A model generated the notes under the pieces. The model did no database searches. It worked only from the letters and a program-made list of their open reading frames with translations, and was not told where the DNA came from. Positions 17,865 to 37,815 of a DNA stretch of 64,000 bases are shown one piece after another (within the stretch, counting starts at the first letter, position 1; each line of letters starts with the position of its first letter). The position numbers and the translations under genes were made by a program. Source of the DNA: Sphaerisporangium corydalis (lineage in GTDB: Bacteria; Actinomycetota; Actinomycetes; Streptosporangiales; Streptosporangiaceae); NCBI RefSeq assembly GCF_025506355.1, contig NZ_JANZYP010000058.1, forward strand, positions 1 through 64,000. Direction: 5' to 3'.

Positions 17865-18392
17865 GGATGGTTGACTCCTCGCATCGATGTTCCGCCGTCG
17901 CCGCGTTGACGGTCTCGCGAGGGTCGCGCTCACTCCCGGTGGAGCCGGCCGGCCGTGGCCTGGTCCCGCCACGGCCGGCCGGAGCAAGGGGTCCCGTCCA
18001 TCCGGACGGCCGAGCGGCACCACCATGGCGGAGCCGAAGTCGGCGGGAACGACTCCGCCGTGGGTCTGGCCGGCCGGACGGACGGGAGTTCAGGGAGTGA
18101 CTACCGCAACCCTCCTCGTGAAATTTCAAACATCAACGAGCAACTTGCGGGTTTGCGGAACTTATTTGCAGGGCTTGTCGCATTAAAGAGCGCCCCTCCG
18201 ACAGGGTGCAAGTGTCGAAGCGCTTCGGCTTTCGTAACGCTTCTGTAACGCGAACCGTCGCGTCGCGCTGACCTCGGGCGCGTCGCAGGATGCCAAGTCG
18301 TTACCAGGCTCGGGGATTTACGGGGATGTTCGGTCCGTGTTAGAACTCGGTTAATTGGTCTCCGATACATACAAACTTGGACGGGTGACGGC
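17865..18392. promoter_or_regulatory. 528-bp divergent regulatory region between the GH99 gene and the ROK regulator
   Basis: No coding frame is convincing here. The region holds a perfect 12-bp palindrome at 18216-18227 and a 15-bp element at 18165-18179 (TTTGCAGGGCTTGTC). The latter recurs with 12 of 15 matches at 19719-19733, just before the sugar dehydrogenase gene. These may be operators for the ROK regulator or for a LacI-type regulator elsewhere. Confidence 0.5.
18216..18227. promoter_or_regulatory. Perfect 12-bp palindrome CGAAGCGCTTCG
   Basis: The sequence CGAAGCGCTTCG is self-complementary and has the central AAGCGCTT of classical LacI-family sugar operators. It lies 177 bp before the ROK start and 352 bp before the GH99 start. 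A regulator of the LacI class encoded elsewhere could use it. Confidence 0.5.
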
Positions 18393-22834: not shown

Positions 22835-24397
22835 ATGCTCAAGGTCATGCGCCGAGGCCTGGCGCTGGTCGCCGCCACGCTGGTCGCCTTCCAGTTCGCC
22901 CCGGCGGCCGCCCAGGCCGCCGCCGATCCGGCCTACAAGGTCCTGGTCTTCTCCAAGACCGCCGGATTCCGGCACGACTCCATCCCGACCGGCATCCAGA
23001 CCATCCGCGACCTCGGCACCGCCAACAACTTCACCGTCACCGCCACCGAGGACGCCACCGCCTTCACCACGGCGAACCTCGCCCAGTTCAAGGCGGTGGT
23101 CTTCCTCAGCACCACCGGCGACGTACTGAACGACGCCCAGCAGACCGCGTTCACCTCCTACGTGAACGGGGGCGGCGGCTACCTCGGCATTCACGCCGCC
23201 GCCGACACCGAGTACGACTGGCCCTACTACGGCCAGCTCGTGGGCGCCTGGTTCAAGAGCCACCCGGCGATCCAGGTGGCGACGGTCAAGAACGAGGACC
23301 GCACGCACCCCGCCACCTCGGGCTTGGCGGCCACGTGGTCGCGCACCGACGAGTGGTACAACTACCGCACCAACCCCCGCTCCACCGTCCACGTGCTGCA
23401 GAGCCTGGACGAGAGCAGCTACACCGGCGGCGAGATGAGCGGGGACCACCCGATCACCTGGTGCCACCCGCAGGCCTCCGGCCGGTCGTTCTACACCGGC
23501 CTCGGGCACACGATCGAGTCCTACGCCGACCCGAGCTACCGGGCGCTGCTGCTCGGCGGCATCAGGTACGTCGCGGGCATGGTCACGGCCAACTGCGCGC
23601 CGCCGACCACCCAGCCGCCCGGCGGCACGGTCGAGGCCGAGTCGTTCTCCTCGCAGTCGGGCGTCCAGGCGGCCGGCCACGCGGGCGCCAGCGGCGGCAC
23701 CACGCTCGGGTACATCGACAACGGCGACTGGGCCGGGTACGCGTCGGTGTCCACGGCCGGGGCGACGGGCTTCACGGCCCGCGTCTCCTCGGGCGGCGCC
23801 GGCGGCACCATAACCATCCGCTCGGGCTCCCAGACCGGGACCGTCCTCGGCACGGTCGCGGTCCCGAACACCGGGAGCTTCGACAACTTCCAGAACGTGA
23901 CCACGACGCTGAACGGCTCGGCGTCGGGGGCGCTGTTCCTGTCGTTCACCGGAGGCTCGGGGTCGCTGTTCGACGTCGACACCTTCACGCTGACCAAGAC
24001 GAGCACCCCGCCCACCACCACCACGACCGAGGGCGAGGCGTTCACCTCGCAGTCGGGCGTGCAGACGGCCGGGCACGCGGGCGCCAGCGGCGGCACCACG
24101 CTCGGGTTCGTCGACAACGGCGACTGGGCCGGGTACTCGCAGGTCAACACCTCGGGCGCCAAGACGTTCGCGGCGCGGGTGTCCTCGGGCGGTCCCGGCG
24201 GAACCATCACGGTCCGCTCGGGCTCGCAGACCGGCACGGTCCTCGGCTCGGTCGCGGTCCCCTCGACCGGTAGCTGGGACACCTTCCAGAACGTGACCAC
24301 GACGCTGAGCGGTTCGGCGTCCGGCACGTTGTTCCTGTCGTTCACCGGAGGGTCGGGGTCGCTGTTCGACGTCGACACCTTCACCATCACGAAGTAA
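22835..24397 (+). CDS. Secreted ThuA-domain protein with two CBM6 modules
   Basis: A 520-residue secreted protein. The signal peptide is at about 1-31 (GLALVAATLVAFQFAP...AQAA). The ThuA domain, a glutamine-amidotransferase-like fold, is at about 33-255 and contains VLVFSKTAGFRHDSI, GGGGYLGIHAAADTEYDWP and YTGLGHTIESY. Two CBM6 modules of about 122 residues each follow (about 266-387 and 397-520), joined by a Thr-rich linker. ThuA proteins accompany disaccharide oxidation and 3-keto-sugar metabolism, but their reaction is not settled. The ATG at 22835 has AAAGGA upstream; the longer frame to 22748 is unlikely. The CBM6 modules are close copies of the last CBM6 of the preceding gene. ThuA and dehydrogenase are separate here but fused in the gene at 29211. 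Confidence 0.88.
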   Translation: MLKVMRRGLALVAATLVAFQFAPAAAQAAADPAYKVLVFSKTAGFRHDSIPTGIQTIRDLGTANNFTVTATEDATAFTTANLAQFKAVVFLSTTGDVLNDAQQTAFTSYVNGGGGYLGIHAAADTEYDWPYYGQLVGAWFKSHPAIQVATVKNEDRTHPATSGLAATWSRTDEWYNYRTNPRSTVHVLQSLDESSYTGGEMSGDHPITWCHPQASGRSFYTGLGHTIESYADPSYRALLLGGIRYVAGMVTANCAPPTTQPPGGTVEAESFSSQSGVQAAGHAGASGGTTLGYIDNGDWAGYASVSTAGATGFTARVSSGGAGGTITIRSGSQTGTVLGTVAVPNTGSFDNFQNVTTTLNGSASGALFLSFTGGSGSLFDVDTFTLTKTSTPPTTTTTEGEAFTSQSGVQTAGHAGASGGTTLGFVDNGDWAGYSQVNTSGAKTFAARVSSGGPGGTITVRSGSQTGTVLGSVAVPSTGSWDTFQNVTTTLSGSASGTLFLSFTGGSGSLFDVDTFTITK

Positions 24398-24564: not shown

Positions 24565-25713
24565 ATGGATGTCGGGGTCTGGCTCGTCGGAGCTCGCGGA
24601 TCGGTCGCCACCACGGTCGTCACAGGCGCCGCGGCGTTACGGGCCGGGCTCGCGACGCCCATCGGCTGCGTGACACAAGGACCTGATTTCGCCGGCGCCG
24701 GGCTGCCGCCGCTGGACCGGCTCGTCTTCGGCGGGCACGACATCGCCAGCACCCCGCTGCCCAAGAAGGCCGAGGAGTTGAGCCGCGCGGGCGTCATCCC
24801 GCACCCGCTCGCCGAGCTGGTGCGCCACGACCTGGAGGCCGCCGAGGCCGAGATCAGGCCCGGCATCCCCGCCGCCGCCGACACCGCCCACGGCCAGGCC
24901 GCCCTGGCGCGCGGGCTCGCCCGCGACATCACCGACTTCCGCGAACGCCTCGGGCTCGCCCGGGTCGTCGTGGTGCACGTCGCCTCGACCGAGCCGCCCG
25001 CCACGCCGCACCCCGCCCACCAGAGCCTGGCGGCCCTGACCGCCGCGCTGGAGGAGCCGGGGGAGGTGCTGCCGCCCAGCTCGCTGTACGCTTACGCCGC
25101 GCTCGGCGCCGGCTGCGCTTACGTCGACTTCACCCCCTCCACCGGCGTCTCGCTGCCCGCGCTCGACGAGCTGGCCCGCGAGCGCGGCCTGCCGTACGCG
25201 GGCCGGGACGCCAAGACGGGGGAGACCCTGGTCAAGACGGCGCTCGCCCCGATGTTCGCCGACCGCGCCCTGGCGGTGCGGTCCTGGTCGGGGACCAACC
25301 TGCTCGGCGGGGGAGACGGCGCCACCCTGGCCGACCCGGCGGCCGGGGAGAGCAAGCGGATCTCCAAGGAGCGGTCGCTGCCCGGCATACTCGGCCACCC
25401 CGTCGAGGGCCGCACCCACATCGACCACGTGCCGCACCTCGGCGACTGGAAGACCGCCTGGGACCACATCACCTTCGAGGGCTTCCTCGGGGTGCGGATG
25501 TCGCTGCAGTTCACCTGGCAGGGCTGCGACTCCGCGCTCGCCGCGCCCCTGGTGCTGGACCTGGCCCGGCTGATGGCCCGCGCCCACGAACGCGGCCACG
25601 CCGGCCCGGTCAAGGAGCTCGGCTTCTTCTTCAAGGACCCCATCGCGCTGGACGAGCACCGCCTGCAGTCCCAGTACGACCTGCTGCGCGCGTGGGCCGG
25701 GACGCTCGCGTGA
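24565..25713 (+). CDS. Inositol-3-phosphate synthase family protein
   Basis: A 382-residue member of the myo-inositol-phosphate synthase family, which cyclises glucose 6-phosphate with NAD as internal redox cofactor. The N-terminal nucleotide-binding loop is VGARGSVATTVVTG. The family-typical YAALGAGCAYVDFTPS and KTGETLVKTALAPMFA follow, as do SWSGTNLLGGGDG and WDHITFEGFLG. The ATG at 24565 has AAGGAG seven bases upstream. The gene opens a coupled operon with UbiA, isomerase and Ebo genes. In the known ebo clusters the corresponding slot is filled by EboD, a sugar-phosphate cyclase related to 3-dehydroquinate synthase. This unrelated cyclase may replace it and make a cyclitol phosphate used as a precursor or carrier headgroup. 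That role is an inference. Confidence 0.9.
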   Translation: MDVGVWLVGARGSVATTVVTGAAALRAGLATPIGCVTQGPDFAGAGLPPLDRLVFGGHDIASTPLPKKAEELSRAGVIPHPLAELVRHDLEAAEAEIRPGIPAAADTAHGQAALARGLARDITDFRERLGLARVVVVHVASTEPPATPHPAHQSLAALTAALEEPGEVLPPSSLYAYAALGAGCAYVDFTPSTGVSLPALDELARERGLPYAGRDAKTGETLVKTALAPMFADRALAVRSWSGTNLLGGGDGATLADPAAGESKRISKERSLPGILGHPVEGRTHIDHVPHLGDWKTAWDHITFEGFLGVRMSLQFTWQGCDSALAAPLVLDLARLMARAHERGHAGPVKELGFFFKDPIALDEHRLQSQYDLLRAWAGTLA

Positions 25714-26663
25714 GCCTGCCCGCCCACCCGCGCGAGGACGCCCGCCCGTACGCGGCCCCCGCGCACCGGCCGGACCTCGCCACGCTCGCCGAACTGGTCC
25801 GGGCGCCCGCCGCGCTCACCGTGCCCGGTGACACCGCCGCCGGAGGCGCGGCGTCACCGGGCCTGGCGCTGTCGTCGGTCTGCCTGTACTGGGCCGGGAT
25901 GGCGCTCAACGACTACGCCGACCGCGACCTGGACGCCGTGGAACGCCCCGAGCGGCCCATCCCCTCCGGGCGGGTGCGGCCGGGCCAGGCGCTCGGCCTG
26001 GCCGCCGGGCTGACGCTCGCCGGGCTGGCCGTCGCCGCCAAGGCCGGCGGGCGTCCCGCCCTTGGGATGGCGACCGCGCTGGCCGCGGTCGTCTGGTCCT
26101 ACGACCTGGCGCTCAAGGCCACCCCCGCGGGCCCTTTGGCGATGGCCGCCGCCCGTGGCCTGGACGTGCTGCTCGGCGGCGCCTCCGGGGGCGGTCCCCG
26201 GCGGGACCGGCTGCTGGCGGCGGGCGCCGTGGCCGCGCACACCTACGGCGTCACCGCGCTCAGCCGGGGCGAGGTCACCGGAGGCTCGGCTGCCCGCTCC
26301 GCCACGGCGCTCACCGCGACGGCCGTGGCCTCCGCGCTGGCCTGCGCCCACGTGTCGTCGGTGACCTCCCGCGCGGCCGGCCCCGGCGCGCCCGCGGCCG
26401 GGGGCGTTTCGCTCGCCGTGCGCAGGGCGGCCGGGTTCGGGCTGACGGCGGTGTACGCGGCGCTGGTCGGCCGGGCGCAGCTCGCGGCGGCCCGCCACCC
26501 CGACGCGGGCCGCACCCGGGCCGCCGTCGGCCAGAGCATCCTCGGCGTGCTCCCGCTGCAGGCCGCGCTCACCGCCGGGCGCGGCGGACTGGCCTCCGCC
26601 GCCGCCCTGGCCGCCGCGCACCCGCTGGCCAGGCGCCTGTCCAGGAAGGTCTCCCCGACATGA
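25710..26663 (+). CDS. UbiA-family prenyltransferase (EboC-like)
   Basis: A 317-residue membrane protein of the UbiA superfamily. The first aspartate-rich motif is NDYADRDLDAVERPERPIPSGR near residue 75. It is followed by several Ala/Leu-rich membrane spans and a second, less conserved loop around VVWSYDLALKATP. Members attach a polyprenyl chain to an aromatic or sugar-derived acceptor at the membrane. It starts at a GTG at 25710 that overlaps the TGA of the preceding synthase, so translation is coupled. It matches the EboC position of ebo clusters and the actinobacterial family often named after Streptomyces SCO3242. The acceptor could be the product of the upstream cyclase; this is inferred from the operon. 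Confidence 0.88.
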   Translation: MSLPAHPREDARPYAAPAHRPDLATLAELVRAPAALTVPGDTAAGGAASPGLALSSVCLYWAGMALNDYADRDLDAVERPERPIPSGRVRPGQALGLAAGLTLAGLAVAAKAGGRPALGMATALAAVVWSYDLALKATPAGPLAMAAARGLDVLLGGASGGGPRRDRLLAAGAVAAHTYGVTALSRGEVTGGSAARSATALTATAVASALACAHVSSVTSRAAGPGAPAAGGVSLAVRRAAGFGLTAVYAALVGRAQLAAARHPDAGRTRAAVGQSILGVLPLQAALTAGRGGLASAAALAAAHPLARRLSRKVSPT

Positions 26664-26718
26664 GGCCGCCCGCCGCCCGCCGCCCCGCCGGGACACCGCA
26701 GAGAGAGGCCCGCCCGAC

Positions 26719-27576
26719 ATGAGGTTCGGCTACGGCACCAACGGGTTCGCCAACCACCGGCTGGACGAGGCGCTCGCGGTCCTGGCCGACCTCGGGTACG
26801 ACGGCGTGGCGCTGACCCTGGACGCCGGCCATCTCGACCCCTACGCGCCGGACGTCGCCCGCGAGGCCGGCCGCGTCGCCAAACGGCTGGGCGAACTCGG
26901 CCTGGCCGTGGTGGTCGAGACCGGCGGCCGCTACGTCCTCGACCCCTTCCGCAAGCACCACCCGACGCTGCTCCACCCGGCGCCGGAGGCGGCGGCCCGC
27001 GTCGACCTGCTGCTGCGCGCGGTGCGCATCGCCGCCGACCTCGGGGCGGAGGCCGTCTCCTTCTGGAGCGGGATCCGCCCGCCCGAGGTCACCGGGCCGC
27101 AGGCGTGGCGCAACCTGGTCGCTGGGGTCGAGGCCGTGCTCGACGAGGCCACCGCGCGCGAGGTGACCCTCGGCTTCGAGCCCGAGCCGGGAATGCTGGT
27201 CGAGGACATCTCCGGCTTCGAGCGGCTGTACGAACTGTCCGGCCGGCCCGCGCGGCTCGGCATGACCCTGGACATCGGCCACTGCCGCTGCCTGGAGGCC
27301 GACCCGGTGCCCGAGTGCGTACGCCGCGCCGGGCCGCACCTGGTCAACGTGCAGATCGAGGACATGCGGCGAGGTGTGCACGAGCACCTCCCGTTCGGCG
27401 AGGGCGAGATCGACTTCCCGCCCGTCCTCGCCGCGCTGGACGCCACCGGGTACCGGGGGCTGGTGGGCGTGGAACTGCCCCGCCACAGCCACGCGGCCCC
27501 CCTGGTCGCCGCCCGGTCCCTGAGCTTCCTGCGCGAGCACGAACCCCCCGCCACCGCCCTGCCCGGTCCCGCGTGA
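26719..27576 (+). CDS. Sugar phosphate isomerase/epimerase (xylose isomerase-like TIM barrel)
   Basis: A 285-residue protein with the AP-endonuclease-2/xylose-isomerase TIM-barrel fold. Conserved metal-binding residues appear in GFEPEPGMLVED, GMTLDIGHCRC, VNVQIEDM (with nearby HEHLPFGEGEIDF) and GVELPRHSH. These fit the pattern of Glu, Asp, His and Glu ligands seen in family members. It likely isomerises or epimerises a sugar or cyclitol derivative. It lies between the UbiA gene (55 bp gap) and the eboA unit. A related but distinct member of the same superfamily, EboE, is encoded at 35192-36445, so the operon has two such barrels. The exact substrate cannot be read from the sequence. Confidence 0.85.
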   Translation: MRFGYGTNGFANHRLDEALAVLADLGYDGVALTLDAGHLDPYAPDVAREAGRVAKRLGELGLAVVVETGGRYVLDPFRKHHPTLLHPAPEAAARVDLLLRAVRIAADLGAEAVSFWSGIRPPEVTGPQAWRNLVAGVEAVLDEATAREVTLGFEPEPGMLVEDISGFERLYELSGRPARLGMTLDIGHCRCLEADPVPECVRRAGPHLVNVQIEDMRRGVHEHLPFGEGEIDFPPVLAALDATGYRGLVGVELPRHSHAAPLVAARSLSFLREHEPPATALPGPA

Positions 27577-27596
27577 CCGGCGCCGCAGGAGAACCC

Positions 27597-27659
27597 ATGA
27601 CCCCCCGAAGCATCACCTGGCCTTCCCGAAGGGCGGCACCGGCCGTGAGACGACGATGA
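27597..27659 (+). CDS. 20-codon leader ORF translationally coupled to eboA
   Basis: A short frame encodes MTPRSITW followed by a basic, Arg/Ala-rich tail. It starts at an ATG preceded by GCAGGAG at a good spacing, whereas the eboA start has no clear ribosome binding site of its own. Its TGA (27657-27659) overlaps the ATG of eboA (27656) in an ATGA junction. The frame probably delivers ribosomes to eboA; the peptide itself may have no function. I know of no family for it. Confidence 0.5.
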   Translation: MTPRSITWPSRRAAPAVRRR

Positions 27660-28345
27660 CCTCGCCCAACCTGTCCGGAGTGGAACTGAGCGAGGACGGC
27701 GCGCGCTGGCTGGAGACCGCGACCCGGCGGATCCGCGAGGACGAGCGCGCCCTCGCGGCGCTGTTCCCCGCCGCCGGCCGGGCCTGCGGCCGGGGCCCCA
27801 TCCCGTCCCGCCCCGGCTGGACCGTCGACCAGGCCGTCCGGGCCGAGCTGCTCGCCGCCCTGCCCGGCAAGGGCGCCGCGCTCGGCGAGACCCTGTTCGA
27901 GCTGTACGCGCACGGGGACGCCGCAGAACGGCTCGCGGTCCTGAAGGCGCTGCCGCTGCTCGCCGGGGACGGCCGGCTCGGCGACGAGGGCCTGCCCATC
28001 GTCCGCGACGCGCTGCGCACCAACGACGCGCGCCTGGTCCAGGCCGCGCTCGGCGGCTACGGGGCCGACCACCTGTCCGATCACGCCTTCCGGCAGGCGG
28101 TGCTGAAGTGCGTGTTCATCGGCGTGCCGCTGGCCTCGGTGTCCGGCCTGGACCGGCGGGCCGACGAGGAGCTCGCCCGGATGATGGCCGACTTCGCCGA
28201 GGAACGCCTGCGCGCGGGCCGCGAGGTGCCGCCCGACACCTGGCCGCTGATGGAACGCCACCCCCACGTGCTCACCAAGGTTCACGCCCTGCGGTCCGCG
28301 AAGGCCTCCCCGCCCCCTGGGGACGGCCTGGACGGCCGGGCTTGA
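27656..28345 (+). CDS. eboA: EboA family metabolite-traffic protein
   Basis: A 229-residue protein of the EboA family: alpha-helical, with HEAT-like character and the conserved stretch VQAALGGYGADHLSDHAFRQAVLKCVFIGVPL. The family is the signature of the ebo cluster, which in Nostoc punctiforme is needed for a scytonemin precursor to reach the periplasm. No signal peptide or membrane span is visible, so it is probably cytoplasmic and may act as an adaptor. The ATG at 27656 overlaps the stop of a 20-codon leader frame, and I see no independent Shine-Dalgarno sequence. The TatD-like gene follows after 17 bp. The exact biochemical activity of EboA is unknown. Confidence 0.88.
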   Translation: MTSPNLSGVELSEDGARWLETATRRIREDERALAALFPAAGRACGRGPIPSRPGWTVDQAVRAELLAALPGKGAALGETLFELYAHGDAAERLAVLKALPLLAGDGRLGDEGLPIVRDALRTNDARLVQAALGGYGADHLSDHAFRQAVLKCVFIGVPLASVSGLDRRADEELARMMADFAEERLRAGREVPPDTWPLMERHPHVLTKVHALRSAKASPPPGDGLDGRA

Positions 28346-28362
28346 CGGAAAAAGGAACCATC

Positions 28363-29214
28363 ATGCGTATCTTCGACCCCCACATCCATATGACCTCCCG
28401 CACCACCGACGACTACGAGCGCATGTACGAGGCCGGGGTGCGCGCCGTCGTCGAGCCGGCCTTCTGGCTGGGCCAGCCCCGCACCTCCCCTGACACCTTC
28501 GCCGACTACTTCGACGGCCTCCTCGGCTGGGAGCCCTACCGCGCCGCGCAGTTCGGCATCACCCACCACTGCACGATCGCGCTGAACCCCAAAGAGGCCA
28601 ACGACCCGCGCCTGCGGCCCGTGCTCGACCTGCTCCCGCGCTACCTGGCCAAGGACGGGGTCGTCGCGGTCGGCGAGGTCGGCTACGACGACATGACCCC
28701 CGCCGAGGACGAGGTGCTGTCCCTGCAGCTCGGGCTGGCGGCCGAGCACGACCTGCCCGTACTGGTCCACACCCCGCACCGCGACAAGGCCGCCGGCACC
28801 CGGCGCACGCTCGACGTCGTGCGCGAGTCGGGCCTGCCGCCGGAGCGGGTGCTGGTCGACCACCTCAACGAGGTGACGGTCGCGATGGTCGCCGAGAGCG
28901 GCTGCTGGATGGGCTTTTCCGTATACCCCGACACCAAAATGGACGAGGAACGCATGATCACGATATTGAAGGAGCACGGCCTCGAGCGCGTGCTGGTCAA
29001 CTCGGCGGCCGACTGGGGGCGCAGCGACCCACTGAAGACCAGGAAGGTCGGTGACGCCATGCTGGCGTCCGGCTTCTCCGACGCCGACGTGGAGACCGTC
29101 CTTTGGGACAACCCGGTCGCGTTCTACGCCCAGAGCGGGCGCCTGGAACTGGCCGAGCCCACCGCCGGTGAGTCCTTCGCCGGCAACAGCGTCCGCCGGG
29201 GGGTGCCCGCGTGA
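28363..29214 (+). CDS. TatD family metal-dependent hydrolase (EboB-like)
   Basis: A 283-residue amidohydrolase-fold enzyme. It begins MRIFDPHIHM, the HxH metal-binding motif. It also has VAVGEVGYDD (bridging Glu), LPVLVHTPHRD and VDHLNEVT (metal-binding His residues) and LVNSAADWGRSD (catalytic Asp). In ebo clusters the TatD-like protein is EboB and sits next to EboA, as here. The ATG at 28363 is preceded by AAAGGAAC; an upstream extension to 28108 would overlap eboA and is not credible. The stop overlaps the GTG of the giant secreted protein gene. The substrate is unknown; it may hydrolyse an activated or protected form of the trafficked metabolite. Confidence 0.88.
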   Translation: MRIFDPHIHMTSRTTDDYERMYEAGVRAVVEPAFWLGQPRTSPDTFADYFDGLLGWEPYRAAQFGITHHCTIALNPKEANDPRLRPVLDLLPRYLAKDGVVAVGEVGYDDMTPAEDEVLSLQLGLAAEHDLPVLVHTPHRDKAAGTRRTLDVVRESGLPPERVLVDHLNEVTVAMVAESGCWMGFSVYPDTKMDEERMITILKEHGLERVLVNSAADWGRSDPLKTRKVGDAMLASGFSDADVETVLWDNPVAFYAQSGRLELAEPTAGESFAGNSVRRGVPA

Positions 29215-32200
29215 CCCGGCTCCGCACGGGCGGTCCGGCCAGGACCACCCGCCGTACGGGCGTGCTCGGGCGCTTCGGCGTCGCCGCGCTCGCCGGCGTC
29301 CTCGCCCTGTCGGCCGCCCTCACCGCGGCGGCCCCGGCGCAGGCCACCACGTCCCGCGCCGCCACGGCGTCCAGCACGACGGCGTCGAGCAAGACGACTT
29401 CGAGCACGGCGTCCAGCACCGTCAAGGCGTCGTCGAGCGCGGTGGCCTCCTCCGCGGCGACCGCGTCCAGCGACGCCGCCGACCCGCCGTTCTCCGCCCT
29501 GGTCTTCTCCAAGACCGCGGGCTTCCAGCACTCCTCGATCCCCAACGGCATCGCGGCGATCAAGCAGCTCGGGCAGGCGCACGGCTTCACCGTCGACGCG
29601 ACCGACGACGCGGGCGCCTTCACCGACGCCAACCTGGCCAAATACCAGGTGGTGATCTTCCTTTCCACCACCGGTGACGTGCTCACGGCCGACCAGCAGG
29701 GCGCCTTCGAGCGCTACATCAAGGCCGGCGGCGGGTACGCGGGCGTGCACTCGGCCGCCGACACCGAGTACGACTGGCCCTGGTACGGCAAGCTCGTCGG
29801 CGCCTACTTCAAGGAGCACCCGGCGCCGCAGCAGGCCGTCGTCAAGGTCGAGGACCCGGCCCACCCCTCCACCAAGGGCCTGCCGACCCGGTGGACCCGC
29901 ACCGACGAGTGGTACGACTACCGGACGAACCCGCGCGGCACCGTCCACGTGCTGACCTCGCTGGACGCCTCCTCCTACACCGGCTCCACCATGGGCGCCG
30001 ACCACCCGAACACCTGGTGCCAGAACTACGACGGCGGACGCTCGTGGTACACCGGCCTCGGGCACACCGAGGAGAGCTACACCGACCCGCAGTTCCTCGG
30101 CCTGCTGCTCGGCGGCATCCAGACCGCCGCGGGCGTGGTCGACGCCGACTGCTCGGCCAGCCTGGACGGCAGCTTCGAGAAGGTCACCCTGGACGACAAC
30201 ACGTCCAACCCGATGATGCTGGACGTCGCCGCCGACGGCAGCGTCTTCTACATCGACCGGCTCGGCGACGTCAAGGTGATCAAGCCGGACGGCGGCGGCC
30301 TGGTGACCGCGGCGCGCCTGCCCGTGTTCACCGCCAACGAGAGCGGCCTGCTCGGTCTCGCGCTCGACCCGGCGTACGCCACCAACCACTGGGTCTACCT
30401 GTACTACTCGCCCACCTCCAAGGTCGTCGACCGGCTCTCGCGGTTCACGGTGACCGACGGCACGACCATCGACCTGGCCAGCGAGAAGGTCCTGCTGGAG
30501 GTCCCGGTGCAGCGGGCCGAGTGCTGCCACCACGGCGGCGGCATGGTGTTCGACAAGGCCACCGGCGACCTGTGGCTCGCCAACGGCGACAACACCAACC
30601 CGTTCGACTCCGACGGGTACGCCCCCATCGACGAGCGGTCCGGCCGCTCCTCCTGGGACGCGCAGGGCACCGCGGCCAACACCAACGACCTGCGCGGCAA
30701 GGTCCTGCGGATCCACCCCGAGGCCGACGGCACCTACACCGTCCCGAGCGGCAACCTGTTCCCGCCCGGCACCGACAAGACCAAGCCCGAGATCTACGCC
30801 ATGGGCATGCGGAACCCGTTCCGCATCGGCATCGACCCCAAGACGCACAAACTGCTGGTGGCCAACTACGGGCCCGACGCGTCGACGGCGAACGCGGCCC
30901 GGGGGCCGGAGAACACCGTCGAGTGGGACATCCTCAACCAGCCCGGCTTCTACGGCTGGCCGTACTGCATCGGCGCCAACAAGCCCTATATCGACTTCGA
31001 CTTCGCCACCCGCACCTCGGGGGCGGCCTTCGACTGCGCGGCGCCGAAGAACGAATCGCCCAACAACACCGGCCTGACCGACCTGCCCGCGGCCAAGCCC
31101 GCGATGGTCTACTACCACTACTCCGCCGACCCGGCGTTCCCCGAGATCGGCGGCGGCGGCGCGCCGATGGCCGGCCCGGCCTACCGCTACGACCCGGCCC
31201 TGGTCTCCGATCGCAAGTGGCCGGCGTACTGGGACGGCAAGGCGATCTTCGGTGAGTGGAACCAGGACAACCTGTACTCCTTCCAGCTCAGCGAGGACGG
31301 CAGCCGGCTGACCGACATCAACCGGATGCTGCCCACCTTCGCCTTCAAAAAGCCGATGGACATGAAGTTCGGCCCCGACGGCGCCCTGTACCTCATCGAA
31401 TGGGGCTCGGGGTTCGGCGGGGACAACACCGACTCGGGCATCTACCGCATCGACTACGTGTCAGGCAACCGGGCGCCGATCGCCAAGGCGGCGGCCGACA
31501 AGACCTCGGGACCCGCGCCGCTGACCGTCGCGTTCGACAGCGCCGGCTCGCGCGACCCCGACGGCACCGCGATCACCCTGGCCTGGGACTTCGACGGCAA
31601 CGGCACCACCGACTCCACCGACGCCGCCCCGAGCCACACCTACCAGGAGAACGGCGACTTCAGCGCCACCCTCACCGTCACCGACGAGGGCGGCAAGACC
31701 GCGAGCGCGAGCATCCCGATCGTGGTCGGCAACAGCCTGCCGAAGGTGACGCTGCTGCCCCCGCCGGACGGCGGCTTCTTCGACTTCGGCGACCAGGTGA
31801 AGTTCACCGTCGAGGTCACCGACGCCGAGGACGGCACCGTCGACTGTGACGACGTGAAGGTGCAGGCGATCCTCGGCCACGACACCCACGGCCACCCGCT
31901 CGACCAGTACACCGGCTGCTCGGGCACCGTACAGACCACGCTGTCCTCCGGGCACAGCGACGGCGACAACGTCTTCTACGTCCTTGAGGCGACCTACACC
32001 GACAAGGGCGGCGCCGGCGGATCGAAGGCGCTGACCGGCCGCGACCAGGTCATCCTGCAGCCCAAGCACAAGCAGGCCGAGTTCTTCTCCACGACCGGCC
32101 GCGTCGCGGGCGCCACCGGCACCGGCGACCCCGGTGTCCGGGCCGAGACCGCGTCCGACCCCCAGGGCGGCTTCCAGGACATCGGCTTCATCGAGGACGG

Positions 32201-35195
32201 CGACTACTGGACCTTCGACCCCGCCAACCTGTCGGGCCTCACGGGCATCCGGTTCCGCGCCGCGTCCGCGTCCTCCGGCGGGACCATCGAGGTCCGCAGC
32301 GGCGCCGGGGACGGCCCGCTGGTCGGCAAGGCCGACGTGCCCGGCACCGGCGGCTGGCAGTCCTACCGCGACATCACGATGACGCTGACCGACCCGCCCA
32401 CCACCAGCGGGCCGCTGTTCTTCGTGGTGCGCAAGCCCGCGGGCAGCACCGACAACGGCTCCCTGGTCAACGTCAACTGGGTCGACTTCCTCGGCCAGGG
32501 CGTCACCGACAACCAGCGGCCCGACGTCACCCTCACCGCCGACCCGGCATCGGGCATCGCGCCGCTGTCGGTGAACTTCCACACCGAGGCGACCGACCCC
32601 GACGGCGACACCCCGCTGAAGTACGCCTGGGACTTCGGCGTGACCGGGGCCCCCAAGCCCACCACGGCCGACGCGACCTACGTCTACCAGTCGCCCGGCA
32701 CCTTCCAGGCGGCGGTGACCGTCACCGACGCCAAGGGCGCCGCGCGCACCGAGCACGTGGCGATCACCGTGGACAGCCCGAGCGCGGCGTGCCTCACCGG
32801 CAAGTCGGACGGGTTCGACGGCGCGCAACTGGACCACACCAAGTGGACGGTCATCCGGGAGAACCAGGACCTGCGGACCGCCGGCGGCAGCCTGCACATC
32901 CCGACCGCCGTCGCCGAGATCTACAGCGGCGACAACAGCACCCCGGTGCCGAACATCGTCGTCCAGCCCGCCCCCGCCGGGGCATGGCAGGCCACCGCCA
33001 AGGTGACGGTCGCGGCCCGCGACGCCTACCAGCAGGCCGGCCTGATCCTCTACGGCGACGACGACAACTACGCCAAGATGGTGATCCAGGGGCGCGGCAC
33101 CAACGACGCGGCCCAGCGCATCTTCCAGTTCGTCCGTGAAGAGGCGGGCACCCCCAACGAGGTGGCCGCGTCCAACACCGCCAACCTCGGGGCCGCCTTC
33201 CCCGACACCGCCTACGTGCGGCTGGCCAGCGACGGCACCCACGTCACCGCGGCGTACTCCGCCGACGGCGAGACGTGGACCGCCATGCCGCAGACCGACA
33301 AGCTGATCGCCGGGATCACCAACCCGAGGATCGGCCTGGTGTCGTTCGCCAGCACCGGTGACCGCAAGGTCATCGACGCGGCGTTCGACTGGTTCCAGCT
33401 CGTGCCCGACGACACCGCCGGCCCCTCGACCCCCGACGACGAGTTCGACGGCACCGCGCTCGACGCCTGCCGGTGGAACGCCGTGGTGCGCCCCGACCCC
33501 GCCGCCCTTCGGGTGACCGGGGGCAACCTGGAGATCGACACCAGCACGGGCGACATCTACGGGACCGGCGACTCCGGCCCGAAGAACTTCGTCCTGCAGA
33601 CCCCGCCCACCGGTGACTGGAGCATCGAGACCAAGGTCGACGGCAGCGCCTTCAACGAGGCCTACCAGCAGGGCGGCCTGATCGCCTACCTCGACGACGC
33701 CAACTACGTCAAGGTCGACTACGTCACCGACAACCAGGCCGGCGCGACGGTCACGCGCAGGCTCGAGTTCCGCAGCGAGATCGCCAACGCCGTGCAGGAC
33801 CCGCAGCCGCAGGTCGGCAACCTCACCCAGGGTGTGTGGTGGCTGCGCCTGACCAAGCAGGGCAACGCCTACCACGGCTTCTACTCCGCCGACGGCACCA
33901 CCTGGACCGAGATCGGCGCGACGACCGGGCTCGTCAACGCGGCCGTCAGTACCGCCAAGGCCGGCGTGTTCGCGTTCGGGGTCAACCAGGCGGCCGCCAA
34001 GACCGCCAAGTTCGACTACTTCCACGCCTCGTGGGGGCAGCCGGCCGACACCACGCCCCCGGTCGTGACCGCCACGACGGCGCCCGCCGCCGCCGACGGC
34101 GCCAACGGCTGGTTCGTGTCCAGCGTCTCGGTCACCGTGGCCGCGACCGACGCCGGGTCCGGCGTCGCCAAGACCGAGACCGGCCTCGACGGCGGCCCGC
34201 TCACCGCCTACACCGACCCGGTGAGCGTCACCGCCGACGGGAACCACACCGTGGCCTACCGGGTGACCGACGTCGCCGGGAACGTCACCGAGGGCACGGT
34301 GCCGGTGAAGAAGGACGCCACCGCGCCGCTGACCACCGCCCAGTTCGCCCCGGCGAACGACGACGGCTGGCACGGCGGCACCGTGCCGGTGACGCTGGCC
34401 GCCACCGACGCCACCTCCGGGGTGGCCGGCATCGAGTACGCCCTGGACGGCGCCGCGTGGAAGGCGTACACCGAACCGGTGAACATCACCGGGGACGGCA
34501 CGCACGAGCTGGCCTACCGCGCCAAGGACAAGGCCGGCAACACCGAGACCGAGAAGGCCGGCACCGTCAAGATCGACGGGACGAAGCCGACCGTGCTGAT
34601 CTCCGGCATCTCCGACGGGCTGATCTACGGTGACAGCCAGGACCTGCGCATCGGCTGGCAGGCCGTCGACAGCACCTCCGGAGTCAAGACGCTGTCGGGC
34701 AACCTGGACGGCGACCCGTACGCGACGGGCACCCTGCAGGCCCTGTACACGCTCGACCTCGGCATCCACCTGCTCACCGTCACCGCCGTGGACAAGGCGG
34801 GGAACCCGACCACCCAGCAGGTGACCTTCGGTGTCACCACCTCCACCCGCGACCTGGCCAACCTCGTCGACCGCTTCGCCGCGACCGGCAGGCTCAGCCA
34901 GGCGGGGGCCAACAAGCTGCAGGCCCAGCTCACCAAGGCGCGCAAGGCCGAGGCCAACGGCAACGACGCCAAGACCGTGAAGGAGCTGCAGAAGTTCCGC
35001 ACCCTGGCCACCGACGTGAAGATCGTGACGGTGGCCGAGGTCCGGGACGCCCTCGCCCGCGACACCGACGCGGTGATCGCGCGGCTGTCCGGTCCCGCGG
35101 CCGCCAGGGCGGTGCCGAAGCGCCTCGGCGCGGCGGAGATCGCGGCGGCCAGGAACCGGGCGGCCCACCCCCTCAACCGAGGAGTGGCACGGTGA
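29211..35195 (+). CDS. Giant secreted multidomain protein: ThuA, sugar dehydrogenase propeller, PKD, CBM6-like, LamG-like and Ig-like repeats
   Basis: A 1994-residue secreted protein. Order: signal peptide (about 1-45); Ser/Thr/Ala linker (46-92); ThuA domain (94-314, ALVFSKTAGFQHSSIPNG); sugar dehydrogenase propeller (320-750, with ECCHHGGGMVFD, NDLRGKVLRIHP, GMRNPFRIGID and GFYGWPYC); PKD (751-842); a two-cysteine spacer; CBM6-like module (952-1098); second PKD (1102-1190); two concanavalin-like/LamG modules (1192-1401 and 1404-1609); three Ig-like repeats (1615-1875); and a charged helical C-terminus (1877-1994) that may be a coiled coil. It starts at a GTG overlapping the stop of the TatD gene and ends at the GTG of eboE, so it is an integral part of the operon. 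It fuses in one chain the two activities that are separate genes at 19895 and 22835. No cell-wall sorting signal was seen. Confidence 0.9.
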   Translation: MTRLRTGGPARTTRRTGVLGRFGVAALAGVLALSAALTAAAPAQATTSRAATASSTTASSKTTSSTASSTVKASSSAVASSAATASSDAADPPFSALVFSKTAGFQHSSIPNGIAAIKQLGQAHGFTVDATDDAGAFTDANLAKYQVVIFLSTTGDVLTADQQGAFERYIKAGGGYAGVHSAADTEYDWPWYGKLVGAYFKEHPAPQQAVVKVEDPAHPSTKGLPTRWTRTDEWYDYRTNPRGTVHVLTSLDASSYTGSTMGADHPNTWCQNYDGGRSWYTGLGHTEESYTDPQFLGLLLGGIQTAAGVVDADCSASLDGSFEKVTLDDNTSNPMMLDVAADGSVFYIDRLGDVKVIKPDGGGLVTAARLPVFTANESGLLGLALDPAYATNHWVYLYYSPTSKVVDRLSRFTVTDGTTIDLASEKVLLEVPVQRAECCHHGGGMVFDKATGDLWLANGDNTNPFDSDGYAPIDERSGRSSWDAQGTAANTNDLRGKVLRIHPEADGTYTVPSGNLFPPGTDKTKPEIYAMGMRNPFRIGIDPKTHKLLVANYGPDASTANAARGPENTVEWDILNQPGFYGWPYCIGANKPYIDFDFATRTSGAAFDCAAPKNESPNNTGLTDLPAAKPAMVYYHYSADPAFPEIGGGGAPMAGPAYRYDPALVSDRKWPAYWDGKAIFGEWNQDNLYSFQLSEDGSRLTDINRMLPTFAFKKPMDMKFGPDGALYLIEWGSGFGGDNTDSGIYRIDYVSGNRAPIAKAAADKTSGPAPLTVAFDSAGSRDPDGTAITLAWDFDGNGTTDSTDAAPSHTYQENGDFSATLTVTDEGGKTASASIPIVVGNSLPKVTLLPPPDGGFFDFGDQVKFTVEVTDAEDGTVDCDDVKVQAILGHDTHGHPLDQYTGCSGTVQTTLSSGHSDGDNVFYVLEATYTDKGGAGGSKALTGRDQVILQPKHKQAEFFSTTGRVAGATGTGDPGVRAETASDPQGGFQDIGFIEDGDYWTFDPANLSGLTGIRFRAASASSGGTIEVRSGAGDGPLVGKADVPGTGGWQSYRDITMTLTDPPTTSGPLFFVVRKPAGSTDNGSLVNVNWVDFLGQGVTDNQRPDVTLTADPASGIAPLSVNFHTEATDPDGDTPLKYAWDFGVTGAPKPTTADATYVYQSPGTFQAAVTVTDAKGAARTEHVAITVDSPSAACLTGKSDGFDGAQLDHTKWTVIRENQDLRTAGGSLHIPTAVAEIYSGDNSTPVPNIVVQPAPAGAWQATAKVTVAARDAYQQAGLILYGDDDNYAKMVIQGRGTNDAAQRIFQFVREEAGTPNEVAASNTANLGAAFPDTAYVRLASDGTHVTAAYSADGETWTAMPQTDKLIAGITNPRIGLVSFASTGDRKVIDAAFDWFQLVPDDTAGPSTPDDEFDGTALDACRWNAVVRPDPAALRVTGGNLEIDTSTGDIYGTGDSGPKNFVLQTPPTGDWSIETKVDGSAFNEAYQQGGLIAYLDDANYVKVDYVTDNQAGATVTRRLEFRSEIANAVQDPQPQVGNLTQGVWWLRLTKQGNAYHGFYSADGTTWTEIGATTGLVNAAVSTAKAGVFAFGVNQAAAKTAKFDYFHASWGQPADTTPPVVTATTAPAAADGANGWFVSSVSVTVAATDAGSGVAKTETGLDGGPLTAYTDPVSVTADGNHTVAYRVTDVAGNVTEGTVPVKKDATAPLTTAQFAPANDDGWHGGTVPVTLAATDATSGVAGIEYALDGAAWKAYTEPVNITGDGTHELAYRAKDKAGNTETEKAGTVKIDGTKPTVLISGISDGLIYGDSQDLRIGWQAVDSTSGVKTLSGNLDGDPYATGTLQALYTLDLGIHLLTVTAVDKAGNPTTQQVTFGVTTSTRDLANLVDRFAATGRLSQAGANKLQAQLTKARKAEANGNDAKTVKELQKFRTLATDVKIVTVAEVRDALARDTDAVIARLSGPAAARAVPKRLGAAEIAAARNRAAHPLNRGVAR

Positions 35196-36445
35196 GATTC
35201 CGCCATCCGGACGGAACCGCCGTCCACGTGGCCTACTGCACCAACGTCCACCCGGCCGAGGACCTGGCCGGGGTGCTCGGCCAGCTCCGCCGCTACGCGG
35301 GCCCCGTCCGTGAGCGGCTGGGCGTCCCGAGGCTCGGGCTCGGGCTGTGGCTGTCGCGGCCGGTCTGCGACACGCTGACCGCCGACCCCGGTGAGGTCGC
35401 TCGGCTCCGTGACGAGCTCGCCGCGCACGGGCTGGAGGTCGTGACCCTCAACGGGTTCCCCTACCAGGGGTTCCACGACTACGAAGGGGAGAGCGAGGCC
35501 GGGGCGGCCGTTCCCGGGTCGCCCAAGCTGCGGGTCTACCACCCCGACTGGACCACGCGTGAGCGGCTTTCCTACACGCTGGACCTGGCACGGGTCCTCG
35601 CCGGGCTGCTCCCCGACGACGTCACGTCGGGGAGCGTCTCGACCCTCCCGCTGGCCTGGCGCACCCCGTGGACGCCCGAGCGGTCCGCCGCGGCGGCGGC
35701 GACCCTCGGCCTGCTCGCCGAAGGGCTCGCCGAGGTGGCCGCCACCACCGGCCGTACCATCAGGGTCGGCTTCGAACCCGAACCCGGCTGCGTGGTGGAG
35801 AACACCACGCAGGCGGCGCACCACCTGGGCGGCGTCGACCACGACTACCTCGGAGTGTGCCTGGACGCCTGCCACCTGGCCGTCCAGTTCGAGGAACCCG
35901 GCGAGGCGGTGGCCCGGCTCGCCGCGGCGGGACTGCCGGTGGTCAAACTCCAGGCGTCGTGCGCCCTCCAGGCCGACCGTCCCGCCGAGGCGGCCACCAG
36001 GGAGGCGCTCGCGGCGTTCGCCGAGCCGCGCTTCATCCACCAGACCCGCGAACGCGGCACCGCCGGGGGCGACCCCCGCGGTGCCGCCGGGGGGGGTTGC
36101 GGGGATAAGGGTGCACCGCTGGCGGTGGACGCCCACGGAGAGGCGCTGGGGGGGTCCCTGCCCGGGGACGCCCCCTGGCGGGTCCACTTCCATGTGCCGC
36201 TGCACGCGCCCCCGGCCCCGCCGCTCACCTCCACCCAGGGCGTGCTCGGCGAGACCCTGCGCGTCCTGCTCGCCGGGCCCGCGGCGCTGACCCGCCACGT
36301 CGAGGTGGAGACCTACACCTGGGAGGCGCTGCCACCCGACCGCCGCCCGCGGACCGAGGAGGCGCTGGTCGAGGGCATCGCGCTCGAACTCGCGTGGATC
36401 CGCGACCGCCTCGTCGACCTCGGGCTGAAAGAGGAGACCCCATGA
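35192..36445 (+). CDS. eboE: EboE family metabolite-traffic protein (xylose isomerase-like)
   Basis: A 417-residue protein of the EboE family, related to xylose-isomerase-like TIM barrels. Typical segments are VAYCTNVHPAEDL, LEVVTLNGFPYQGFH, RIRVGFEPEPGCVVE-like (TIRVGFEPEPGCVVENT), YLGVCLDACHLAVQFE, FHVPLH and HVEVETYTWEALP. Together these contain the conserved acidic and His metal ligands. A Gly-rich, low-conservation loop (about 290-315) looks like an insertion. Translation starts at a GTG overlapping the stop of the giant secreted protein, and the stop overlaps the ATG of the phosphodiesterase gene. EboE is one of the genes that define the ebo cluster. Its enzymatic activity has not been established, though isomerisation of a sugar-like metabolite fits the fold. 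Confidence 0.9.
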   Translation: MRFRHPDGTAVHVAYCTNVHPAEDLAGVLGQLRRYAGPVRERLGVPRLGLGLWLSRPVCDTLTADPGEVARLRDELAAHGLEVVTLNGFPYQGFHDYEGESEAGAAVPGSPKLRVYHPDWTTRERLSYTLDLARVLAGLLPDDVTSGSVSTLPLAWRTPWTPERSAAAAATLGLLAEGLAEVAATTGRTIRVGFEPEPGCVVENTTQAAHHLGGVDHDYLGVCLDACHLAVQFEEPGEAVARLAAAGLPVVKLQASCALQADRPAEAATREALAAFAEPRFIHQTRERGTAGGDPRGAAGGGCGDKGAPLAVDAHGEALGGSLPGDAPWRVHFHVPLHAPPAPPLTSTQGVLGETLRVLLAGPAALTRHVEVETYTWEALPPDRRPRTEEALVEGIALELAWIRDRLVDLGLKEETP

Positions 36446-37815
36446 CGAACGACGTGCGGCCGATGGTCCTCATCGACGTCGTCGGCCTGACGCCCCGCCT
36501 GCTGGAATCGATGCCGAACCTGTCCCGGCTGGGCCGCCCGGCCTCACTCGGGACGGTCCTGCCCGCCGTGACCTGCTCGGTGCAGTCGACCTTCCTGACC
36601 GGCGCCCTCCCGCGCGACCACGGGATCGTCGGCAACGGCTGGTACTTCCGCGACCTCGGCGAGGTCATGCTGTGGCGCCAGCACAACGGCCTGGTCGAGG
36701 GGCCGAAGATCTGGGACGACGCCCGCCGGGTCCACCCCGGCTACCGCGTCGCCAACATCTGCTGGTGGTACGCCATGGGCGCCGCCACCGACTTCACGGT
36801 GACGCCCCGGCCGATCTACCACGCCGACGGCCGCAAGTCGCCCGACTGCTACACGACCCCGCCGGCCCTGCGCAACGACCTGACTCGCGAGCTGGGCCGG
36901 TTCCCGCTGTTCTCCTACTGGGGACCCAACGCGGGGATCGCGTCCAGCCAGTGGATCGTCGACGCGTCCCGGCTGATGCTCGCCCGGGAGAAGCCCGACC
37001 TGACCCTCGTCTACATCCCGCACCTGGACTACGACCTCCAGCGGTTCGGCCCCTCGGGGCCGGAGGCCGTGGCCGCGGCCCGGCAGGTGGACACCGCGCT
37101 GAAGCCGCTGCTCGACGACGCGGAGGCCATGGGCGCGGTGACCGTCGTGCTGTCGGAGTACGGCATCACCGACGTCTCCCGGCCCGTCGACATCAACCGG
37201 GCGCTGCGTCAGGAAGGCCTGCTGTCGGTCTACCGGCAGGCCGGGATGGAGTACCTGGACACCTGGACCTCGCGGGCGTTCGCCGTCGCCGACCACCAGC
37301 TCGCCCACGTGTACGTGAAGGACCCGGCCGACGTGGCCAAGGTCCGGTCCATCCTGTCCGCGCTCCCCGGCGTGGACGAGGTGCTGGACGAGGCGGGCAA
37401 GGCGGCGCACGGCCTCGACCACGCAAGGGCGGGGGAGCTGGTCGCGGTGGCCACGCCCGAGTCGTGGTTCACGTACTACTACTGGCTGGACGACGACCTG
37501 GCGCCGGACTTCGCCCGGTCGGTCGAGATCCACCGCAAGCCCGGGTACGACCCGGCCGAGCTGTTCCTCAACCCCGAGGACCGGCTGGTGAAGGCGAAGG
37601 CCGGTCTGGCGCTGGCCCGCAAGACCCTGGGCTTCCGCTACACCATGCCCGTCGTCCCGCTGAACCCCGCCCCCGTTCGAGGCAGCCACGGCCGCCTCCC
37701 CACCGACCTCCGCGACGCCCCCGTCCTGCTCTGCAGCGACCCTCTCGACAAGGATTCCTACGCCGCCACCGAAATCAAATCTCTCTGCCTCCGCCTCTCC
37801 GGCCTAACCACCTAA
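36442..37815 (+). CDS. Alkaline phosphatase-like/type I phosphodiesterase (EboF-like)
   Basis: A 457-residue member of the nucleotide pyrophosphatase/phosphodiesterase group of the alkaline phosphatase superfamily. Metal and nucleophile signatures are LIDVVGLTP (first Asp), PAVTCSVQSTFLTGALPRDHGIVGN (nucleophile Thr/Ser region), YIPHLDYDLQ (Asp and His ligands) and VVLSEYGITDVSRP (the SEYG/DHG site). Ebo clusters end with such a phosphatase, EboF. The ATG at 36442 overlaps the stop of eboE, and GAGGAG lies at 36431-36436. It would remove a phosphate or pyrophosphate-linked carrier from the metabolite. No signal peptide is visible. A strong hairpin nine bases past the stop closes the operon. 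Confidence 0.9.
   Translation: MTNDVRPMVLIDVVGLTPRLLESMPNLSRLGRPASLGTVLPAVTCSVQSTFLTGALPRDHGIVGNGWYFRDLGEVMLWRQHNGLVEGPKIWDDARRVHPGYRVANICWWYAMGAATDFTVTPRPIYHADGRKSPDCYTTPPALRNDLTRELGRFPLFSYWGPNAGIASSQWIVDASRLMLAREKPDLTLVYIPHLDYDLQRFGPSGPEAVAAARQVDTALKPLLDDAEAMGAVTVVLSEYGITDVSRPVDINRALRQEGLLSVYRQAGMEYLDTWTSRAFAVADHQLAHVYVKDPADVAKVRSILSALPGVDEVLDEAGKAAHGLDHARAGELVAVATPESWFTYYYWLDDDLAPDFARSVEIHRKPGYDPAELFLNPEDRLVKAKAGLALARKTLGFRYTMPVVPLNPAPVRGSHGRLPTDLRDAPVLLCSDPLDKDSYAATEIKSLCLRLSGLTT

Follow-up and report, generated by a model that had tools for sequence, protein, structure and literature searches.

The ebo cluster is known from cyanobacteria, Bacteroidota and eustigmatophyte plastids (PMC5133447, PMC6282210). 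It has been described as a six-gene operon with an isoprenoid-cyclitol as the proposed product, and sedoheptulose 7-phosphate was named as a likely substrate of EboD, its cyclase resembling 3-dehydroquinate (DHQ) synthase (PMC5133447). The same paper reports fusions of EboA with xylose-isomerase-like proteins in actinobacteria, as well as an EboA/EboG alternative, and its main text nowhere uses the word "inositol". Mutants of the ebo genes in Nostoc produce no scytonemin and keep the monomer in the cytoplasm (PMC6282210). ebo genes are also reported from an actinobacterium, Saccharomonospora (PMC9235831). Here, an ebo-type operon is analyzed in a 64,000-nt stretch of DNA from Sphaerisporangium corydalis (the whole stretch is called the window), in which a gene for a myo-inositol-3-phosphate synthase (MIPS)-like cyclase stands in the place of EboD.

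The operon occupies nucleotides 24565–37815 of the plus strand (Table 1). Like the clusters described in PMC5133447 and PMC6282210, it combines homologous EboA, EboB, EboC-related UbiA, EboE and EboF genes. It differs from their descriptions there in the MIPS-type cyclase found instead of the DHQ-synthase-like EboD, in an extra TIM-barrel isomerase (ISO), and in the gene order. EboD was detected neither in the locus nor in the genome, and the MIPS gene stands in its place; the operon is therefore classed as a variant and not as a standard ebo operon. No description of a MIPS-type ebo operon was found among the papers listed in searches of the open-access literature, with subscription journals and preprints outside the scope of that search.

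The cyclase exceeds the cut-offs of both PF07994 (172 bits) and PF01658 (110 bits; frame from 24475). Its best solved relative is the MIPS of Archaeoglobus fulgidus (1u1i), with E = 1e-71 over residues 5–380 of 382. The Mycobacterium-type Ino1 (1gr0, E = 2e-12) and a five-membered-cyclitol-phosphate synthase (6k96, E = 8e-13) are much weaker matches, and the mycothiol-type Ino1 equivalog TIGR03450 gives 49 bits, under its cut-off of 638. Six residues (N245, D251, K264, K268, K296, and K357 in the window numbering) align with the active site of 1u1i. They are identical in all 114 sequences and also invariant across 14 aligned homologues. We take these positions to be catalytic. Two structure entries of A. 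fulgidus carry alanine at two of the aligned lysines, unlike 1u1i. The near full-length alignment and the retained lysines, asparagine and aspartate correspond to the archaeal-type MIPS; the difference is that the window cyclase is encoded inside an ebo operon.

Searching the genome (9.48 Mb in 162 contigs, 99.4% complete) revealed no EboD; its only DHQ-synthase match lies elsewhere and adjoins a frame whose start we take to be shikimate-kinase-like, and a hidden EboD is therefore rejected. For comparison with relatives, 116 actinobacterial loci were used: 80 named MIPS loci, which are the best 80 of at least 577 confirmed stretches and all Actinomycetota by title, and 36 others. Counts of these loci are not independent, because the loci are related, often cut by contig ends, and possibly duplicated within a species (L057 and L138, and L068 and L148, look alike). 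EboD and AroB queries matched none of the 116 loci. The 10 EboD-type plasmid loci introduced below served as a positive control; AroB by itself, used as the query, detects EboD in every one of them (102–126 bits). Two loci outside the 36, which have a distant EboE in another context (L047 and L071), were searched with MIPS and AroB, and neither query matched. DHQ synthases of 38 genomes lie apart from the ebo loci; where one shares a contig with them, it is at least about 91 kb away (shortest in G016 and G087).

Within the class, EboE and MIPS were searched in 148 genomes, taken as the same set for both since the identifiers agree. EboE is over the cut-off in 37 genomes. MIPS alignments above 500 bits are given by 37 genes in 34 genomes, all of them among the 37 with EboE, and by none in the remaining 111. 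The EboE genomes lacking this MIPS are G028, which has a 325-bit MIPS elsewhere, G040, and G068. Counted by genes, 39 EboE are over the cut-off, and 34 of them (the one in the window and 33 of the 38 others) have MIPS alongside. The loci without it are L036, L055, L058 (contig break), L047, and L071; L036 is a second ebo copy in a genome whose other copy has MIPS. Three of the 37 MIPS genes are off the contig of any EboE over the cut-off. One is in G075 (contig break), one on contig C11 of G136, and one on contig C47 of G087, where UbiA, EboA, and EboB lie beside it. Within 10 kb of MIPS in the 80 named loci, some of which are cut by contig ends, there are UbiA (70 loci), EboA (69), EboB (69), ISO (68), EboE (67), and EboF (65). 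The usual gene order is MIPS-UbiA-ISO-EboA-EboB-EboE-EboF, and MIPS comes first in most loci. ISO and EboA share one frame in 12 of the 101 loci having both.

An earlier note on this DNA, made from the sequence alone, had proposed that EboD is absent and that the MIPS-type gene takes its place, to be judged by linkage in relatives and by the lack of a DHQ-synthase-like gene nearby. The counts above agree with it on all these points, and the additional isomerase that it had pointed out is a usual part of the actinobacterial operon. One correction concerns scope: the cyclase arrangement is no peculiarity of the window and is, in these samples, the actinobacterial norm. The MIPS-type ebo variant is widespread in actinobacteria and is not a local oddity.

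It could be considered that MIPS only adds inositol for mycothiol or phosphatidylinositol, and that its place among ebo genes is incidental. This would fit the fold family and the active-site residues, which are MIPS ones. The genome, however, has two MIPS genes, and the other one (on contig C75) is 29% identical to that of the window over 219 aligned columns. Furthermore, all 34 genomes with the window's type of MIPS have EboE, and its position at the operon head recurs in most loci. Inositol supply alone is disfavored and appears highly improbable.

Beyond the class, tblastn of EboB gave 51 records of a plasmid collection, 19 of which were examined, chosen to cover genera. Three loci of a family that does not belong to the class of the window (L220–L222) bring the number of further ebo loci to 22: 10 with EboD, 11 with MIPS, one with neither (Haladaptatus), and none with both. 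The EboD-type loci are from Azospirillum, Mycetohabitans, Salipiger (two plasmids of one strain), Gloeothece, Aureibacter, Ketogulonicigenium, Roseivivax, and Deinococcus (two); only EboB and EboD were seen in Gloeothece. Of the MIPS-type loci, four come from actinobacterial records, three from haloarchaea, and three are the outside-class ones; the eleventh is from Gemmatirosa (Gemmatimonadota), where the record lacks annotation and genes were assigned by similarity. The haloarchaeal loci contain an EboC-related UbiA (in Natronococcus, the only one tested, 197 bits, under the cut-off of 250), EboB, EboF, and TIM barrels, and EboA is neither annotated nor matched in them. In Halobaculum (L170, 15.7–18.1 kb), genes for trehalose-6-phosphate synthase and phosphatase directly follow the ebo-type genes. 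An annotated ferritin-like protein is encoded near the EboD-type ebo genes of Aureibacter (L164), Mycetohabitans (L161), and Gloeothece (L163), with PF12902 confirmed for L164 only.

Trees with midpoint roots were made for EboF (35 rows) and EboB (36 rows). The EboF of the MIPS-type Gemmatirosa locus branches with EboD-type rows (support 97/91), and its EboB branches with the EboD-type Deinococcus (support 100/100). The haloarchaeal rows stand apart in both trees. Counted on well-supported branches, the EboD label must change at least twice in the EboB tree, for which the tool warned of long branches meeting, and only once in the EboF tree. More than one exchange between EboD and MIPS is therefore likely, not proven. 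Judged from the gene content of the loci compared, EboD and the MIPS gene substitute for one another and were not seen in the same locus; the rest of the operon consists of ebo-family genes and a single TIM-barrel isomerase. The replacement of EboD by the MIPS-type gene is strongly supported, since the two exclude each other, the MIPS gene is linked to ebo genes, and its active-site residues are intact.

The membership of the other genes was examined with family models. EboA of the window, the sole EboA match in the genome, scores 167 bits against the domain model NF035938 (cut-off 50) and 95 bits against the family model NF035937, under its cut-off of 320. EboE scores 393 bits against NF035939 (cut-off 250). 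The window EboB used in tblastn finds the TatD gene adjoining annotated EboE in nine of 10 EboD-type loci, the exception being Gloeothece. The window EboF matches at 455–517 bits in nine of the 10, with no match in Gloeothece (L163). EboA, EboB (over the cut-off of PF01026), EboE, and EboF (by PF01663) are recognizable family members, as the earlier note had stated. For EboC, the models point both ways. UbiA is over the cut-off of 260 for the SCO3242-family model NF045897 (339 bits), but under that of 250 for EboC (121 bits; frame from 25692 in both cases). SCO3242 and SCO3243 of Streptomyces coelicolor are listed as genes of the calcium-dependent antibiotic (CDA) cluster (PMC3610822). They are consecutive in number, a "putative transferase" (the name on NF045897) and a "myo-inositol phosphate synthase", which resembles the pair in the window; ebo is not mentioned in that listing, and S. 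coelicolor was compared by description only.

The genome contains one EboE over the cut-off plus a shorter EboE-like TIM barrel on another contig (C89, 60934–61605; L072). Such proteins (also L073) score 176–192 bits, under the cut-off, and occur in six genomes of the family of the window. A second ebo operon is ruled out here, as no other ebo query matched the 20-kb locus. Its neighbors are presumably ClpC-like and MutY-like genes, the ClpC-like one in both loci examined (L072 and L073).

Table 1. Features of the operon and of the genes upstream of it (window coordinates).
Feature	Coordinates	Strand	Remarks
ROK-family regulator, upstream	18393..19691	+	PF00480, 165 bits
GSDH-PKD-CBM6 protein, secreted-type, upstream	19895..22726	+	PF07995, 114 bits
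ThuA-CBM6 protein, secreted-type, upstream	22835..24397	+	PF06283, 266 bits
MIPS-like cyclase (archaeal-type MIPS-like), 382 residues	24565..25713	+	PF07994 and PF01658; stands in the place of EboD
UbiA-superfamily prenyltransferase, SCO3242/EboC kind	25710..26663	+	NF045897
20-codon "leader" frame	26660..26722	+	probably no gene
ISO, xylose-isomerase-like TIM barrel	26719..27576	+	PF01261, 135 bits
EboA	27656..28345	+	NF035938
EboB, TatD-like metal hydrolase	28363..29214	+	PF01026, 49 bits
Secreted-type protein, 1994 residues	29211..35195	+	ThuA, GSDH, and further domains
EboE, TIM barrel	35192..36445	+	NF035939
EboF, nucleotide pyrophosphatase/phosphodiesterase-like	36442..37815	+	PF01663, 199 bits (frame from 36394)

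Eight genes lie on one strand, as noted before. The leader frame counted with them is probably not a gene, because Planotetraspora mira (L076) lacks it and has a direct overlap of UbiA with ISO. Instead of five 4-bp stop-start overlaps, six (ATGA or GTGA) were counted: MIPS/UbiA, UbiA/leader, leader/ISO, EboB/secreted gene, secreted gene/EboE, and EboE/EboF. Two of the six depend on the leader frame. The start of EboB at 28363 does not overlap the end of EboA at 28345. The minus-strand neighbors in the window were considered as an ABC importer, and this was ruled out; they encode a GH99 protein, a sensor kinase, a lipase, and a collagen-like protein. The GH99 glycoside hydrolase has an F5/8-type domain (16353–18026) and is divergent from the ROK gene. 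A ROK-like match is seen in 36 of the 80 named loci.

Since the remaining genes are shared and exchanges are apparent, both cyclases may feed one pathway. As the two unrelated cyclases are interchangeable, a common intermediate is probable, and glucose 6-phosphate would be a candidate substrate of EboD too. We lean toward the reading that the MIPS-type ebo operon is the known ebo pathway with its ring-forming enzyme exchanged, serving extracytoplasmic oxidoreductases, probably with a prenylation step. The MIPS-like cyclase would convert glucose 6-phosphate to inositol 3-phosphate, which would replace the cyclitol of EboD, EboF could remove or rearrange the phosphate, and the two TIM barrels and EboB might remodel the ring. 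The EboC-type UbiA would then join a prenyl chain to the ring-derived head group, the chain being supplied by a polyprenyl-diphosphate synthase, whose gene lies close by in some lineages. The membrane product could support chemistry outside the membrane, as a metabolite carrier across it or as a partner of secreted oxidoreductases. The prenylation step is suggested by the membership in the UbiA family and by a polyprenyl synthase gene near 17 of 102 loci. The link to extracytoplasmic chemistry is suggested by the Nostoc genetics (PMC6282210) and by the neighbor counts given below. A tested EboC homologue farnesylates and prefers aromatic acids (PMC9235831), which is unfavorable to a plain cyclitol as the acceptor.

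The other enzymes of the operon also contain conserved residues. The motif EPEPG is seen in 100 of 101 ISO and 101 of 103 EboE sequences. The closest solved sequence to EboB is AF_1765 (3guw, E = 2e-31). H7, H9, E105, H136, H167, and D217 of EboB are at least 95% conserved in 106 sequences, and we assume them to be metal ligands. UbiA has the motif NDxxDxxxD in 101 of 101 sequences. A DxxxD is absent in all 101 from its usual second place, the stretch aligned with residues 165–200 of the window protein, and occurs elsewhere past position 100 in four; none of eight EboC-type sequences, including those from EboD-type loci, has a later DxxxD. In EboF, T44, D196, E239, and Y240 are identical in 35 of 35 sequences. 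The E239-Y240 pair occupies the position of the D-H pair of phosphonoacetate hydrolase in all 35, which suggests a changed metal site across the family, and the metal chemistry of EboF may therefore differ.

MIPS-like genes were also seen without other ebo matches. In L158, L159, and L223–L225, a more distant one is found with ISO-like and Gfo-like genes, possibly as another cyclitol pathway; L158 and L159 additionally have frames that we take to be LmbE-like and glycosyltransferase-like. In Micromonospora (L112 and L127, 10–19 kb; also L133), a MIPS-like gene leads a run of genes without ebo matches. In L112 and L127 the run presumably includes AMP-ligase-like, PLP-decarboxylase-like, and carrier-protein-like genes, and the first gene after MIPS in it has no NCBIfam match.

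The 1994-residue secreted protein that the earlier note placed in mid-operon is present there. It contains ThuA, a GSDH beta-propeller, PKD, CBM6, two concanavalin-A-like domains (GH43_C2/DUF1349), OmpL47, and FIMAH; its signal peptide is a by-eye reading of the sequence. GSDH (PF07995) and ThuA (PF06283) domains are over the Pfam cut-offs in this protein and the two secreted-type genes upstream. Such a secreted gene between EboB and EboE is also seen in P. mira (1911 residues), and not in Acrocarpospora (L078, L079, and L094). In Sphaerisporangium album (L077), MIPS, ISO, EboA, and EboB matched, and UbiA, EboE, and EboF were unmatched in the available stretch. The mid-operon site looks local, and ThuA/GSDH genes beside the operon are common.

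Neighbors of the 116 loci were compared with 40 control stretches, each 20 kb long and placed at round coordinates, not at random, in 16 of the ebo genomes. Near the 102 loci with MIPS and EboB there are genes for GSDH (57 loci), a Gfo/Idh/MocA protein (44), an ABC binding protein (41), a second isomerase (41), ThuA (40), a secreted-type TIM barrel (29), the polyprenyl synthase mentioned above (17), a Tat-signal protein (2), and the ScyE family (1), counts that are inflated by kinship among the loci. Each of these kinds is found in 0 of the 40 controls. When only the 81 loci of 19 kb or more are counted, GSDH, ThuA, ScyE, or the Tat protein is present in 57; the other 24 have none of them, three being cut inside the secreted protein. 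The Tat-signal-type protein (L038, L089, L093, L100, and L179) is encoded directly upstream of MIPS in L038, L089, L093, and L179, and has no Pfam family in the two tested (L089 and L038). Outside Actinobacteria, some loci have comparable neighbors: Natronococcus an annotated PQQ-dependent sugar dehydrogenase near its ebo genes (151 bits to the GSDH part of the window protein), Halocatena a ThuA, and Haladaptatus a DUF1080 protein and the Gfo described below. As far as gene neighborhoods can tell, secreted GSDH/ThuA genes, a Gfo/Idh/MocA gene, and a ribose-type ABC importer show a strong association with the operon. The observation made on the window thus holds as a whole: the gene run is present, the families are assigned, and the co-occurrence and control counts are beyond chance.

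The secreted ThuA/GSDH and Gfo/ABC genes might instead be a glycoside-catabolism (3-keto sugar) set merely neighboring the operon. ThuA is also found far from ebo genes, with 218 copies in 35 genomes, and the ThuA/GSDH link is missing at many loci. However, that density over about 233 Mb predicts only about 0.02 ThuA per 20 kb, against 40 of 102 loci observed. The ebo-linked Gfo resembles levoglucosan dehydrogenase at 373 bits in an actinobacterium and at 358 bits near the ebo genes of Haladaptatus, both under the cut-off of 650. In G136 (L156) and Lentzea (L096 and L118), MIPS is found with Gfo, a second isomerase (ISO2), and GSDH without ebo genes, which ties MIPS itself to that module. An independent set of genes is accordingly doubtful.

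The operon may also make an export carrier, as proposed for the Nostoc ebo genes: a prenylated cyclitol lipid would take a small metabolite out, and the secreted ThuA/GSDH proteins would then act on it. This is close to the model of the earlier note, and there is a real chance of it, somewhat short of even. ScyD/ScyE-family proteins adjoin MIPS-type ebo genes in Streptomyces NBC_00663 (253 bits) and Thermomonospora echinospora (291 bits; cut-off 80), and MIPS-type ebo genes lie near natural-product genes, namely a nonribosomal peptide synthetase (NRPS) gene in L179 and a type II polyketide synthase (PKS) in L169. The core has no transporter, however, and the ABC genes near the actinobacterial operon are of the sugar-importer (ribose) type. 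Nor is any substrate evident that would be exported in sugar oxidation, NRPS, and PKS contexts alike.

Another possibility is that a membrane-bound prenylated, possibly aromatized ring compound is an electron acceptor or cofactor of extracytoplasmic beta-propeller oxidoreductases. Characterized sugar dehydrogenases of the GSDH fold need pyrroloquinoline quinone (PQQ). pqqC was found in just one of 35 genomes searched, a point in favor of this reading; it was found in 0 of 14 control genomes, so the sensitivity of the search rests on one match. Beta-propeller neighbors recur in the 57 loci with GSDH, in the ScyD/ScyE proteins with NHL matches, and in a PQQ dehydrogenase of Salipiger (L162). In Ketogulonicigenium, the ebo genes have a Piru_Ver/DUF7133 protein nearby, together with a c-type cytochrome by annotation; the fold of the former we presume to be a beta-propeller. 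The farnesylation of aromatic acids by the tested EboC homologue (PMC9235831) points in the same direction. On the other hand, the core operon has no obvious ring-oxidizing enzyme, the Nostoc localization data favor transport, proteins with such folds include some that are not redox enzymes, and PQQ could be taken up. An oxidoreductase-type neighbor is found in only two of 10 EboD-type loci, with none among the annotated genes of the other eight and of Halobaculum. We regard this redox role as unlikely.

It can be speculated further that ebo operons of both types make a prenylated ring-derived membrane cofactor not yet known, quinone-like or a glycolipid, needed by extracytoplasmic beta-propeller oxidoreductases, with glucose 6-phosphate converted by either cyclase into one and the same six-carbon ring. 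This is a long shot. If true, such a role would explain the scytonemin phenotype of Nostoc together with the GSDH, ScyE, and PQQ-enzyme neighbors in bacteria and archaea.

The ebo genes occur in many phyla and even in plastids. The exchange of EboD for a member of a well-understood cyclase family offers a way in: should inositol phosphate prove to be what the MIPS-type protein makes, it would reveal the ring precursor of the ebo product, and the product itself could then be traced with labeled inositol or glucose. MIPS-type ebo operons may also give a context to the gene pair counted with the CDA antibiotic cluster. The neighbor pattern points to extracytoplasmic sugar oxidation as the place to seek a phenotype, in easily grown Streptomyces.

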